Part shown: one piece after another, positions 5,212 through 30,480 of the stretch
Position numbering within the stretch: the first letter of the stretch is position 1
How the letters are laid out: every line of letters starts with the position of its first letter
NCBI GenBank assembly: GCA_009908725.1
Contig: JAAAOT010000265.1
Coordinates: 1-32,005, forward strand
Reading direction: 5' to 3'
From: Bacteroidota bacterium
GTDB lineage: Bacteria > Bacteroidota > Rhodothermia > Rhodothermales > Salinibacteraceae
Length of the DNA stretch: 32,005 nt
Program-made: the position numbers and the translations under genes
Notes under the pieces: generated by a model
Database searches by the model: none
Told to the model about the DNA's origin: nothing
The model's input: the letters and a program-made list of their open reading frames with translations, nothing else

Positions 5212-5240
5212 TTGACATACGAAGGCATTCGTAGTATCAT
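5212..5240 (+). promoter_or_regulatory. Sigma-70-like promoter of the blaI-M56 operon
   Basis: A perfect TTGACA (-35) at 5212-5217 is followed after exactly 17 nt by TATCAT (-10) at 5235-5240, placing a start of transcription near 5247, about 30 nt before the blaI ATG at 5277. This is the clearest promoter in the window. It is overlapped by two palindromes likely to be repressor sites. Confidence 0.75.
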
Positions 5241-5255
5241 ACGAAAGCCATCGTA
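5218..5255. promoter_or_regulatory. Two tandem BlaI/MecI-type operator palindromes
   Basis: The first site, TACGAAGGCATTCGTA (5218-5233), has 6-bp arms (TACGAA/TTCGTA) and fills the spacer between -35 and -10. The second, TACGAAAGCCATCGTA (5240-5255), has 5-bp arms and covers the end of the -10 and the probable start site. Their starts are 22 bp apart, about two helical turns, so dimers would bind the same face. BlaI/MecI repressors bind short palindromes of the TAC(A/G)..(T/C)GTA kind and repress their own operon; assignment of these sites to the adjacent BlaI protein is inference from position and symmetry. Confidence 0.7.
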
Positions 5256-5276: not shown

Positions 5277-5678
5277 ATGTCCGACCCAGACGCTCCTCTT
5301 CCCACCGATGCCGAGTTGTCGATCCTGCGTGTGCTCTGGCGTGAGGGACCGTCGACGGTTCGTGAAGTCCTCGCCCACATTGACGATGCCGGCTACACCA
5401 CCGTTCTCAAGCAACTCCAGATCATGCGCGACAAGGGACTGGTGACGCGCGACGAATCGAGTCGTGCACACGTGTACGCTGCGGCCGTGCAGGCGGCGTC
5501 GACCGAAAAGCGGCTCGTCGATGATTTGCTGGACCGCGCCTTCGGGGGATCCGCTCGTCGCCTGGTCGCGCATGCTATCGCGGGTGATAGCGTGTCCGAC
5601 GAGGAAATCGGGGCCATTCGCGACCTCCTGGACTCCGTTCAATCCGACGACTCTGACGATGGACCCGATGACTCCTGA
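5277..5678 (+). CDS. blaI: BlaI/MecI/CopY family winged-helix transcriptional repressor
   Basis: A 133-residue repressor. The first 75 residues are the winged helix-turn-helix: LPTDAELSILRVLWREGPSTVREV, then GYTTVLKQLQIMRDKGLVTRD, then the wing SRAHVYAAAV. Residues 76-120 (STEKRLVDDLLDRAFGGSARRLVAHAI) are the helical dimerisation part, where family members carry a site cut in response to the M56 sensor. It acts in the cytoplasm, binding its own operators and releasing them when the sensor is activated. The ATG at 5277 is 22 nt past the second operator. The end overlaps the M56 gene by up to 20 nt, the usual blaI-blaR arrangement. Outside staphylococci such pairs often control functions other than beta-lactamase; no beta-lactamase gene is in this window. 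Confidence 0.93.
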   Translation: MSDPDAPLPTDAELSILRVLWREGPSTVREVLAHIDDAGYTTVLKQLQIMRDKGLVTRDESSRAHVYAAAVQAASTEKRLVDDLLDRAFGGSARRLVAHAIAGDSVSDEEIGAIRDLLDSVQSDDSDDGPDDS

Positions 5679-6714
5679 TCCGATGTATCTCGACTCCTTT
5701 TCTCTGTACCCGTTCTGGCTAGATGTATCCGCGGTGGTGGGTGACTGGCTGCTTGCCGCCCTCTGGCAGGGGGCGATTGTGGCCGCGGTGGCGGTACTCC
5801 TGCTCGCGCTTCTGCAACAGGCGGGACCGGTCTGGCGGTACTCCCTTTCCGTAACGGCCCTCCTGGCTCTGCTGCTGGTGCCGCTGCTCTCATCGGTGGG
5901 CGGAGCGGCGGAGGAGCCGACGGCCCCTCCCGAACCCGAGGCGGTTTCTTCCATGCCTGCGCCTATCCCAGTGCCTCCCGCCGCTCCAGCCATGCCGGAG
6001 GTACCGAGAGCATCCGCTCCGGCGCCGGAAGCGGACGTAGAGGCGAGCAATGGCCTTCTTCCCGCGTTGGCATCCGCTCTGCCGGGTCAACAGCTGTCCG
6101 AGTGGCGCGGTGCAATCGAGCGCGTCTCACCGGTGTGGGTCGGGTTCTGGCTCCTGGGTGTATCAGTGCTCGCGCTCCGGCTGCTCGGAGGAATCTGGTG
6201 GATCCGACGCCTGCGGACCTCATCTCGACCGCCCGACCGCGAGGCGGCTGGAGTCGTCCGTCGTGCACGAAATCGAGCCGGAGGCGCACGCTCCGTACAG
6301 GTCCGATGCTCGCCCCGCATCGATACGCCGATCCTGTGCGGGTGGTGGCGACCGATGGTGATCCTACCCGCATCGCTCTGCAGCGAATGCCCGGACGATG
6401 AGCTCGAAGTATTGCTCGTGCACGAATTATCGCATGTCCGACGGCACGACGTGATGGTCGGCTGGATTCAGGCGGTGGCGGAGACGCTCCTGTTCTTTCA
6501 CCCGGGCGTCTGGTGGCTGACGCAGCAGATCCGCCGTGAGCGGGAGCACGTGGTTGATGATCACGTCGTGGATGCTGGCGTGGCGCCGGTTACCTACGCG
6601 GAGGCGCTTACCCGTGTGGCAGAGCAGGCGGCGTCCGTTCGGCCGGCACGGGGCATCGCGCTGATGCCCCTGACAGTGGCGGGGCCCTGCTCCAGCGGAT
6701 TCGCCGCCTGGTGA
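5659..6714 (+). CDS. M56 (BlaR1/MecR1-like) membrane metallopeptidase, N-terminal part before a frameshift
   Basis: Sensor-protease partner of BlaI. From the ATG at 5659 (5668 and 5683 are alternatives; the first two overlap blaI) it has membrane segments near residues 27-53 and 62-80, a long Pro/Ala-rich loop (85-128), a third segment near 158-178, then the peptidase core: IDTPILCGWWRPMVILPASL, the zinc motif HELSHVRRHD at 255-264, and ERE..VDDHVVD near 295-304, which supplies the third zinc ligand. Family members continue directly into an (L/A)GG.LLRRIRRL segment and a fourth membrane helix. Here the frame instead runs out after GIALMPLTVAG into a short foreign tail and stops at 6714, while the expected continuation is found one base back, in the frame of the next entry. 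The peptidase core itself looks intact. Confidence 0.85.
   Translation: MDPMTPDPMYLDSFSLYPFWLDVSAVVGDWLLAALWQGAIVAAVAVLLLALLQQAGPVWRYSLSVTALLALLLVPLLSSVGGAAEEPTAPPEPEAVSSMPAPIPVPPAAPAMPEVPRASAPAPEADVEASNGLLPALASALPGQQLSEWRGAIERVSPVWVGFWLLGVSVLALRLLGGIWWIRRLRTSSRPPDREAAGVVRRARNRAGGARSVQVRCSPRIDTPILCGWWRPMVILPASLCSECPDDELEVLLVHELSHVRRHDVMVGWIQAVAETLLFFHPGVWWLTQQIRREREHVVDDHVVDAGVAPVTYAEALTRVAEQAASVRPARGIALMPLTVAGPCSSGFAAW
6681..6714 (+). other. Frameshift junction in the M56 gene (probable loss of one G)
   Basis: At 6681-6684 a GGGG run occurs where one further G would keep the reading frame: reading GCG GGG then GCC CTG CTC CAG CGG gives AGALLQRIRRLV, the conserved M56 continuation. As sequenced, the upstream frame ends in TGA (6712-6714) and the downstream frame offers a GTG at 6711, a GTGA overlap that could allow coupled re-initiation. 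The GGGGCCC context is not an in-phase X XXY YYZ slippery heptamer, so a true mutation or a homopolymer sequencing error is more likely than programmed shifting. Confidence 0.75.
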
Positions 6715-7397
6715 CCGGGCATCGACACGACCCCGTTCCCCGGACAACGCTCATCGCTGCGATCCTGACGGTGCTCGTCGTGCCGCTCTTCGCTGCAGCC
6801 TGTTCGTCCAACGGGGCCGCCGCCGACCGGCAGGTGGAGCAGGACGTCGAAACGCGAACGATCGTCATCCCGCACGGCGACGGGGATACATTGCGCTCGG
6901 GGACCGATATTCGCGACTCCATCATCGTACGAAATGGGTCGACCGGTCGCGTCGAGCGCCTTGTGATCCGCCAGGATACAACGTGGCCCGCGGAGATCGA
7001 TTCCCTCCTGCAGAAGGCTTTCCGGTTCGATGGGGATAGCCTGGCGTTTCGGTTTGACGGAAACATCGTTGACCCGGCTCGTTTTGCGGAACGTCTCCGA
7101 CGGTCGATGACCCTTCCGAACATCGACAGCCTGCTCGCCGCTCACTCCATCGACGGGGACAGTCTTCGCTCGTTTTCCTACTCCTTCAGCGATTCGATCG
7201 GCCCGGGGTCCGCGATGATCTTCCGCCTGCGGCAGTTCGGCGATTCGTTCGCGGCCGGCGAGATAGAGCGTCAGTCGGACCTCCTCCGTCGACAGGCAGA
7301 CCGACTCCGACAGCAGGCGGAAGAAATGGAGCGACGCGCCGACGAGATGGCACGTGAGCCTGGCGAGCGGGAAAACGAACCCGGCAATCCGGACTGA
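6711..7397 (+). CDS. C-terminal part of the frameshifted M56 protein (membrane helix plus charged periplasmic domain)
   Basis: This frame carries what should be the C-terminal part of the M56 protein. Before the GTG at 6711 it already encodes ALLQRIRRL, matching the family. From the GTG it gives 228 residues: a short basic stretch, one membrane helix at about residues 13-31 (TLIAAILTVLVVPLFAAAC), then a hydrophilic domain with repeated FDGDSL / IDSLL / DGDSLRSF words and a charged coiled-coil tail (about 185-215, RQADRLRQQAEEMERRADEM). The helix plus the acidic domain would be the sensor region outside the cytoplasm. Restored, the whole protein would be about 579 residues. If taken alone it could resemble a lipoprotein (AAAC), but the upstream homology in the same frame argues against that. 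It ends 14 nt before a convergent lipoprotein gene. Confidence 0.7.
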   Translation: MTGHRHDPVPRTTLIAAILTVLVVPLFAAACSSNGAAADRQVEQDVETRTIVIPHGDGDTLRSGTDIRDSIIVRNGSTGRVERLVIRQDTTWPAEIDSLLQKAFRFDGDSLAFRFDGNIVDPARFAERLRRSMTLPNIDSLLAAHSIDGDSLRSFSYSFSDSIGPGSAMIFRLRQFGDSFAAGEIERQSDLLRRQADRLRQQAEEMERRADEMAREPGERENEPGNPD

Positions 7398-28397: not shown

Positions 28398-28590
28398 CAC
28401 GGGGATGGACGGGCCTGACGAGTGCGTCTGCGATTGCGTCTGAATGGCGTTTCATATCTGTTGTGGCGGCCCGGATCTCTTCCGACGGTCTTTGCAACCT
28501 CGGCTGTCGGCCATCGTTTGCGTCGTGTTTCGGAGCGGACCCACACAGGACCGCTCACCCGACGAATTTCCGTCACCAGTCCCGCGTCTC

Positions 28591-29523
28591 ATGAATCGCC
28601 GATCGTTCTCTGCCCGCGCGCTTCGCGGTGTCCTTCTCCTCAGCCTGCTGCTTCTGTTCGTCCCCCGTTCATCGCATGCCCAGGAAGACGCGCTGGACAC
28701 ACAGCGCATCATCGACAACCTGAAGATGGAGATTCCGCAGCTTCGCCAGACCGGGCAGGTGTCGCTCAGCTCGTTCTCGGAAAGCGACGTTGAAGGATTC
28801 AAGCGGGCGACGCTGACGGTCAACGGTCGCCAGATCCCGATGCTGATCACGCCGGACGGCTCTAAGGCGCTGCTGCTCGCGGGTCCTCCGATCGACGTTA
28901 GCCGTTCCCTGGAGGAGGTGAATCAGGCCATGGCCGATGAGGCCTCCGAGCGCGGGGCAACGCTCGCACGTGCAACCGAGGGCATGCCCGTCCGCGGCCC
29001 CGTCGATGCTCCGGTCACGCTGGTCGAGTTTTCAGATTTTCAGTGCCCGTACTGCGCCCGCGCATCCGATCTCGTGAACGAGCTTCTTTCGCGCTATCCC
29101 GAAACGCTAAACGTCGTGTACGTGCACTATCCGCTTCCGATGCACGAGTGGGCGCGTCCGGCCGCCGTTGCATCGCAGTGCGCGGCGCGGCAGAGCGATG
29201 AGGCCTTCTGGACGCTGCACGACGCCTACTTCGAGGAGCAGAGCGATATCACGCCGGACAACGTGATGTCAAAGAGCGAAGCCTACCTTTCTGATGCGTC
29301 GATCGACATGGCCGCGTGGAAGACATGCGCCCAGGACGAGACGTCGTCCGCACACGAAGAAGTACAGCAGACGATCACGGCGAACATGCAGGCCGGGCAG
29401 GAGGTCAATGTGACCGGGACTCCCTCGTTCTACATCAACGGGGAGAAGGTGCAGGGAGCGCGGTCGATCGAGGCCTTTACCCGCCGCATCGACCAGGCCG
29501 TCGCTGCCGCGGAAGGCAACTGA
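28591..29523 (+). CDS. DsbA-like periplasmic thiol-disulfide oxidoreductase, secreted form
   Basis: A 310-residue exported thioredoxin-fold protein. From the ATG at 28591: a signal peptide (ALRGVLLLSLLLLFVPRSSHAQ), an N-terminal domain of about 95 residues (IIDNLKMEIPQLRQ to MLITPDGSKALLLAGPPIDV) that resembles the dimerisation part of DsbC-type proteins, a helical linker, then the DsbA domain: RGPVDAPVTLVEFSDFQCPYC with active site C152-P-Y-C155, the helical insertion (EWARPAAVASQCAARQSDEAFWTLHD), WKTCAQDE, and GTPSFYINGEKVQGARS with the cis-Pro near 278. It would oxidise or isomerise disulfides in the periplasm. A paralogue follows 48 nt downstream. No DsbB-like partner is in the window. 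Confidence 0.92.
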   Translation: MNRRSFSARALRGVLLLSLLLLFVPRSSHAQEDALDTQRIIDNLKMEIPQLRQTGQVSLSSFSESDVEGFKRATLTVNGRQIPMLITPDGSKALLLAGPPIDVSRSLEEVNQAMADEASERGATLARATEGMPVRGPVDAPVTLVEFSDFQCPYCARASDLVNELLSRYPETLNVVYVHYPLPMHEWARPAAVASQCAARQSDEAFWTLHDAYFEEQSDITPDNVMSKSEAYLSDASIDMAAWKTCAQDETSSAHEEVQQTITANMQAGQEVNVTGTPSFYINGEKVQGARSIEAFTRRIDQAVAAAEGN

Positions 29524-29571
29524 CCGGTCTCTCTGCTCTGCCATCTGATTCCGTACCCAACTGCTCTGCCC

Positions 29572-30480
29572 ATGATGCGCCCGGCTTCGCTTCTCGCTAC
29601 TCTTCTCACCGCGTTTGTCTTGCTTGCGGGATGCGGCGATACCTCCACCGCGCCCGATGTCGACGAGGAGAAGATTTTGGCTAACCTCCGACTTGAGATT
29701 CCTCAGGTGCGCGACGCGGATTCGCTGCGGATCGATTCTCTCCGTGAAAGCTCGGTTGATGGGTTCTACCGCGCCCAACTCGTGGTGAACAACCAGAATC
29801 GTGTGCTCGTGATGATCCGCGAAGACGAGTCGGAGGTGTTGCTGCTGGCGGGGCCTCCGCTCGACGTCGGGCGGTCGGCAGAACAGATGCAGGCTTCGCA
29901 GCAGCAGGAAAGCGAGGCTCGAGCCGATGTGCTTCAGCGGGCGTCGGAAGGCATGCCCGCCCGCGGCCCGGCGGACGCCCCCGTCACGCTGATCGAGTTT
30001 TCGGACTTTCAGTGCCCGTACTGCGCGCGAGCGACGACGCTGGTCGACCAACTGCGCGAGCGTTATCCGGACCGGCTCCGCGTTGTGTTCATGCACTTCC
30101 CTTTGTCGTCGCATGAATGGGCGCGCCCGGCGGCCATGGCCGCACAGTGCGCGGCCCGGCAGGACGAAGACGCGTTCTGGCGGCTGCACGACTTCTACTT
30201 TTCCAACCAGGACGCGCTCACGCCGGGGAACGTGATGGCGAAAAGCGAACCCATCCTGGCGGAGACGTCGGTTAACGTGGACGACTGGAAGACCTGCGCG
30301 ACGGATCGCACGTCCGACGTGCATCGCTCCGTCGCCCGTCAGGTGAATGCTTCCCTGGAAGCCGGCAAGGAGGCAGGCGTAACCGGGACGCCGTCGTTCT
30401 TCGTGAACGGCGAAAAAGTCCAGGGCGCGCGGACGGTGGAGGCCTTTGCCAGGAAGATCGAGGCCGCCACGGGGAGTTGA
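29572..30480 (+). CDS. DsbA-like thiol-disulfide oxidoreductase, lipoprotein form
   Basis: A 302-residue paralogue of the preceding gene with the same two-domain layout but a lipoprotein signal (LLATLLTAFVLLAGC, lipidated Cys21), so it is membrane-tethered. Shared features: ILANLRLEIPQVR and VLLLAGPPLDVGRS in the N-terminal domain; RGPADAPVTLIEFSDFQCPYC with C148-P-Y-C151; EWARPAAMAAQCAARQDEDAFWRLHDFYF; WKTCATD; GTPSFFVNGEKVQGAR. The active-site dipeptide (Pro-Tyr) is identical in both, which suggests similar redox chemistry; the difference is mainly location. The close spacing (48 nt) and similarity point to a local duplication and probable co-transcription. A 14-bp tandem repeat begins 15 nt after the stop. 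Confidence 0.92.
   Translation: MMRPASLLATLLTAFVLLAGCGDTSTAPDVDEEKILANLRLEIPQVRDADSLRIDSLRESSVDGFYRAQLVVNNQNRVLVMIREDESEVLLLAGPPLDVGRSAEQMQASQQQESEARADVLQRASEGMPARGPADAPVTLIEFSDFQCPYCARATTLVDQLRERYPDRLRVVFMHFPLSSHEWARPAAMAAQCAARQDEDAFWRLHDFYFSNQDALTPGNVMAKSEPILAETSVNVDDWKTCATDRTSDVHRSVARQVNASLEAGKEAGVTGTPSFFVNGEKVQGARTVEAFARKIEAATGS

Follow-up and report, generated by a model that had tools for sequence, protein, structure and literature searches.

The window analyzed here is a stretch of 32,005 nucleotides that constitutes contig C337 of a draft Rhodothermales genome (G000), a metagenome-type assembly of 394 contigs that is 84% complete. The whole window is syntenic with G001, the only other genome of the same genus that was compared; two adjoining paralogous open reading frames (ORFs) at 28444-30480 on the plus strand are likewise neighbours in G001. 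The locus of interest encodes a repressor and a membrane sensor whose reading frame is broken, with the following features.

5212..5240, plus strand: putative sigma70-type promoter of the blaI-M56 operon (TTGACA at 5212-5217, 17 bp, TATCAT at 5235-5240)
5218..5255, no strand assigned: double BlaI-type operator, TACGAAGGCATTCGTA at 5218-5233 and TACGAAAGCCATCGTA at 5240-5255, 22 bp apart
5277..5678, plus strand: BlaI/MecI-type repressor of 133 amino acids (PF03965 Penicillinase_R, E 6.7e-23), its end overlapping the start of the M56 gene
5659..6714, plus strand: M56 peptidase part of the sensor, 351 amino acids as sequenced (PF05569, E 1.7e-30), with an aberrant C-terminal tail
6421..6435, plus strand: HELSH zinc motif (HExxH), residues 255-259
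6544..6558, plus strand: EHVVD (ExxxD) with the third zinc ligand, residues 296-300
6667..6684, plus strand: region in which one net base was lost, most likely at about 6667-6674 (CCCCTGAC) and less likely at GGGG 6681-6684
6681..6710, plus strand: codons of the G-ALLQ-R-I-R-R-L stretch in the -1 frame, in neither ORF as sequenced
6711..7397, plus strand: -1 frame ORF of 228 amino acids from a GTG, comprising the last membrane helix and the periplasmic sensor part
6750..6803, plus strand: last membrane helix, ending in a lipobox-like FAAAC with its Cys at 6801-6803

The match to the PF03965 profile, together with paired dyad operators (TACGA-N6-TCGTA, twice) upstream of blaI, places the repressor in the BlaI/MecI family. 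The putative promoter, called solely from its match to the consensus, overlaps these dyads, and the same double dyad lies upstream in all eight relatives checked. Within the genome the double operator occurs once, even allowing three mismatches, and only two further positions carry a single TACGA-N6-TCGTA site; within the limits of an 84% complete genome, the BlaI/M56 module thus seems to regulate mainly itself. The single dyads (L189, G000:C316, 6691-6706, and G000:C17:2254-2269) may be further BlaI sites or chance occurrences.

The peptidase part scores 106.7 bits against PF05569 Peptidase_M56 (gathering score 31) and contains the gluzincin zinc site HExxH...ExxxD of that family. It also matches the solved BlaR1 chains 8exs and 8exp (E 2e-4), and the spacing of 41 between the two zinc motifs is the same as that between H201 and E242 of Staphylococcus aureus BlaR1, in which the motifs are H201EXXH and E242XXXD (PMC9834060). 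As in the BlaR1/MecR1-BlaI/MecI systems of S. aureus and B. licheniformis, the genes for the repressor and the M56 zinc peptidase are adjacent and overlapping, HExxH and ExxxD are equally spaced, paired dyad operators lie upstream, and the last helix is followed by an extracytoplasmic C-terminal part. In contrast to BlaR1 and MecR1, the C-terminal part is short, a lipobox-like Cys follows the last helix, and the frame is broken.

An earlier note, made from the letters of this stretch, had described an M56 sensor split in two with its continuation in the -1 frame, and its coordinates for the two ORFs (5659-6714 and 6711-7397) and for the GTGA stop-start overlap between them (6711-6714) are correct. 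Reading one base twice joins the two frames into a protein of 579 residues, in agreement with the length of about 579 that it had predicted. This joined protein is collinear with a single 607-codon gene at the syntenic locus of G001 (L003, G001:C2:94379-96199), with 46% identity over 584 columns (E 4e-135). L003 is thus a syntenic orthologue, collinear from end to end and with the same operator pair and overlap with blaI; it differs from the window's gene in having an intact frame and the lipobox LVAC where the latter has AAAC. With the orthologue as query, residues 6-352 matched 5671-6684 and residues 349-583 matched 6672-7376. On a profile constructed from ten homologues, the upstream ORF scored 338.6 bits, the downstream GTG ORF 46.7 bits and the joined protein 407.2 bits; for the remaining five frames of the downstream stretch, scores were negative or not reported, and the best shuffle reached 4.4 bits. 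Since the -1 frame is the only one that scores on the profile and the orthologue is collinear, the downstream frame does belong to an M56 protein, as had been proposed. Substitutions relative to the orthologue peak at third codon positions both upstream (0.58) and downstream (0.73) of the break, which indicates that both parts evolved as coding sequence; the downstream dS is saturated. No further lesion was found in either part of the gene.

Relatives offered a direct check on whether such a split is normal for the family. The twelve best homologues inspected were single ORFs in every case (12 of 12), and among the ten genomes of the family that matched strongly, only the window's own gene was found to be split. 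Elsewhere in the order, M56 ORFs of about 300 residues (L193-L195) were considered as candidate natural splits and set aside; they are distant and end soon after the peptidase domain. We conclude that the locus contains a single M56 sensor gene, in which a net loss of one base has disrupted the frame. We put at roughly 0.92 the probability that it is an ordinary BlaI-regulated M56 sensor gene minus one net base, through either a base error or a recent inactivating mutation. Against this explanation, short GC-rich runs of four bases are not where errors classically occur, and the GTGA overlap, with a start just before a lipoprotein-like signal, would fit a coupled second protein.

The earlier note had assigned the missing base to the G run at 6681-6684, a placement that did not hold up. 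This GGGG aligns to a GGGG in the orthologue, and both the aligners and the profile favour a position upstream of it: the one-base gap in the DNA alignment falls after 6673 with MAFFT and after 6668 with blastn, and when every one-base insertion was scored on the homologue profile, insertion after 6669 gave 414.0 bits and an extra G gave 407.2 bits, although score gaps of a few bits do not pin the exact position. Insertion after 6669 produces ...MPADSGGALL... and an extra G produces ...VAGALL..., where relatives have (S/T)DG-LL. Taken together, the alignments and scores indicate that the base was probably lost outside GGGG 6681-6684, upstream at about 6667-6674, and the break should not be assigned to the base originally proposed.

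One alternative is that the split is functional, such that the cell makes a truncated peptidase and, by coupling at the GTGA, a separate lipoprotein from GTG 6711. GTGA overlaps often couple translation, and the GTG ORF starts with MTGHRHDPVPRTTLIAAILTVLVVPLFAAAC, a credible lipoprotein signal sequence ending in FAAAC. In addition, the last helices of S. aureus BlaR1 are flanked by two natural cleavage sites (PMC9834060), and the break lies near the equivalent of the autocleavage loop, as placed by numbering offset. However, a clear Shine-Dalgarno sequence was not found before GTG 6711, the twelve homologues are all single ORFs, and the conserved Gly/Arg stretch is carried by neither product, because the -1 frame contains no ATG, GTG or TTG between 6561 and 6711. 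Within this stretch, Gly-x4-Arg-x2-Arg (G352, R357 and R360 of L003) is invariant in nine aligned relatives. In BlaR1, the active site is completed by the conserved Arg294, in the helix after the autocleavage loop, which forms a salt bridge with the active-site Asp246 of the partner chain (PMC9834060). The first invariant Arg lies 47 residues after the equivalent ExxxD Asp, compared to 48 in S. aureus BlaR1, and from this spacing we infer that it is the counterpart of Arg294, the alignment to BlaR1 itself ending before the Arg. Because residues that never vary in the aligned relatives are encoded by neither ORF, a working sensor made in two parts, which the earlier note had entertained, is unlikely, and we regard a functional split of the gene as very improbable.

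A second alternative is that programmed -1 frameshifting at GCG-GGG-CCC yields the full protein, since a tRNA on GGG 6682-6684 could re-pair at 6681-6683. Conservation of the frame change in relatives was not observed: none (0) has one at the equivalent place, the twelve homologues being single ORFs. The G run is, moreover, away from the likely site of the lost base, and we give programmed frameshifting almost no weight.

The net loss of one base could have arisen in the data or in the organism. An error of sequencing or assembly would mean that the gene is whole in the living cell and that the two annotated parts should be merged; this we consider slightly better than an even bet, given that neither part shows other damage, that the assembly is a draft, and that a second one-base break turned up within 129 kb of aligned coding sequence. 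The latter figure comes from a survey in which about 0.5 Mb of the genome was compared with 2.0 Mb of G001 (122 genes). Two convincing one-base breaks were found, the sensor gene and one near C11:17276 (L073, G000:C11, minus strand), where a 741-residue G001 protein matches two adjoining frames with no gap. A third candidate, on C320, was rejected as untranslated sequence before another gene, and a fourth as an antisense match. One-base breaks of this kind are therefore not rare. Two observations speak against error: the break is not beside a long homopolymer, and the reciprocal comparison gave ten candidate breaks in G001, taken as raw candidates, so that real pseudogenes are to be expected too. 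No independent copy of the species was found among the loci returned by a contig scan, and viral contigs contained no exact match.

The same facts (no other damage, the second break and the draft assembly) fit a real and recent loss-of-function mutation that leaves a dead sensor and a BlaI that represses its own operon, and this we hold to be a serious possibility at somewhat less than even odds. It is favoured by the absence of the invariant Gly/Arg stretch from both ORFs and by the double operator being unique to the operon, such that loss of the sensor may cost little; against it, decay is limited to a single base. If the break is real, the loss of one net base would cause translation to leave the frame near residue 337-342 and to stop at 6714. 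The resulting 351-residue product would keep the zinc ligands without the conserved Gly/Arg stretch and the last helix, and owing to the loss of these elements it would probably be inactive, with the operon staying repressed. The suggestion in the earlier note that BlaI would then be left as a constitutive repressor is reasonable, and the only double operator found in the genome is the operon's own.

What the intact sensor would respond to is a separate matter. The description of the protein as BlaR1-like applies to the peptidase part and not to the downstream part: NCBIfam NF000326 (blaR1) scored 70.3 bits against a cut-off of 400 and matched the peptidase part only, no SxxK or KTG/KSG motif of a penicillin-binding sensor was found in 6711-7397, and the downstream part had no match in Pfam or NCBIfam. 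Lacking these motifs and any Pfam match, it has nothing that points to beta-lactam sensing; judged by its sequence, the sensor is probably not of the beta-lactam type and probably does not bind beta-lactams, and the ligand is likely to be some envelope signal. Intact relatives most likely work like BlaR1, with three helices and a cytosolic zinc peptidase followed by a final helix and the periplasmic sensor part. In such a system a signal would activate the peptidase, which would cut BlaI and free the operon's own double operator.

We conclude that this is most likely a gene of a known kind whose frame break reflects either an error or a recent null allele, and that a new two-part sensor is unlikely. 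For annotation, the two predicted proteins should be recorded together as a single sensor gene, its frame break being listed as of unverified origin.

The last helix has a feature that extends beyond this locus. Of 35 M56 proteins from the order, 14, the window's included, have a lipobox-like motif at the end of the outer half of this helix, a count that ignores kinship and uses a motif chosen after seeing examples. The variants are LVAC, LAAC, IIAC, LLAC and others, and two more proteins end in LMAC. Carriers are the window's protein (6750-6803), L003, L006, L008, L009, L010, L011, L012, L014, L029, L030, L196, L197 and L198; elsewhere in these proteins, the same motif is expected 0.009 times per 20 residues. 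L196 (G000:C81, 78-1217, minus strand) is a second M56 gene of the same genome, and the lipobox of its last helix is IIAC. S. aureus BlaR1 cuts itself at Ser283-Phe284 and is cut by the signal peptidase SpsB after Gly331, just past the last helix (PMC9834060), so that removal of the sensor at this helix has precedent. Our literature search found nothing on a BlaR1 with a lipobox or on M56/BlaI in Bacteroidetes. The motif suggests that signal peptidase II may release the sensor in M56 proteins of the order. A more specific proposal, which we offer tentatively and consider rather doubtful, is that in part of the order the lipobox directs lipid modification of the periplasmic sensor of BlaI-linked M56 proteins and signal peptidase II frees it, as a Gram-negative counterpart of the SpsB cut. 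If this is true, the split gene described here would reproduce at the genetic level a cleavage to which the protein is subject in any case, and processing at the lipobox would show how sensors that lack a penicillin-binding domain are turned over or passed to the outer membrane.
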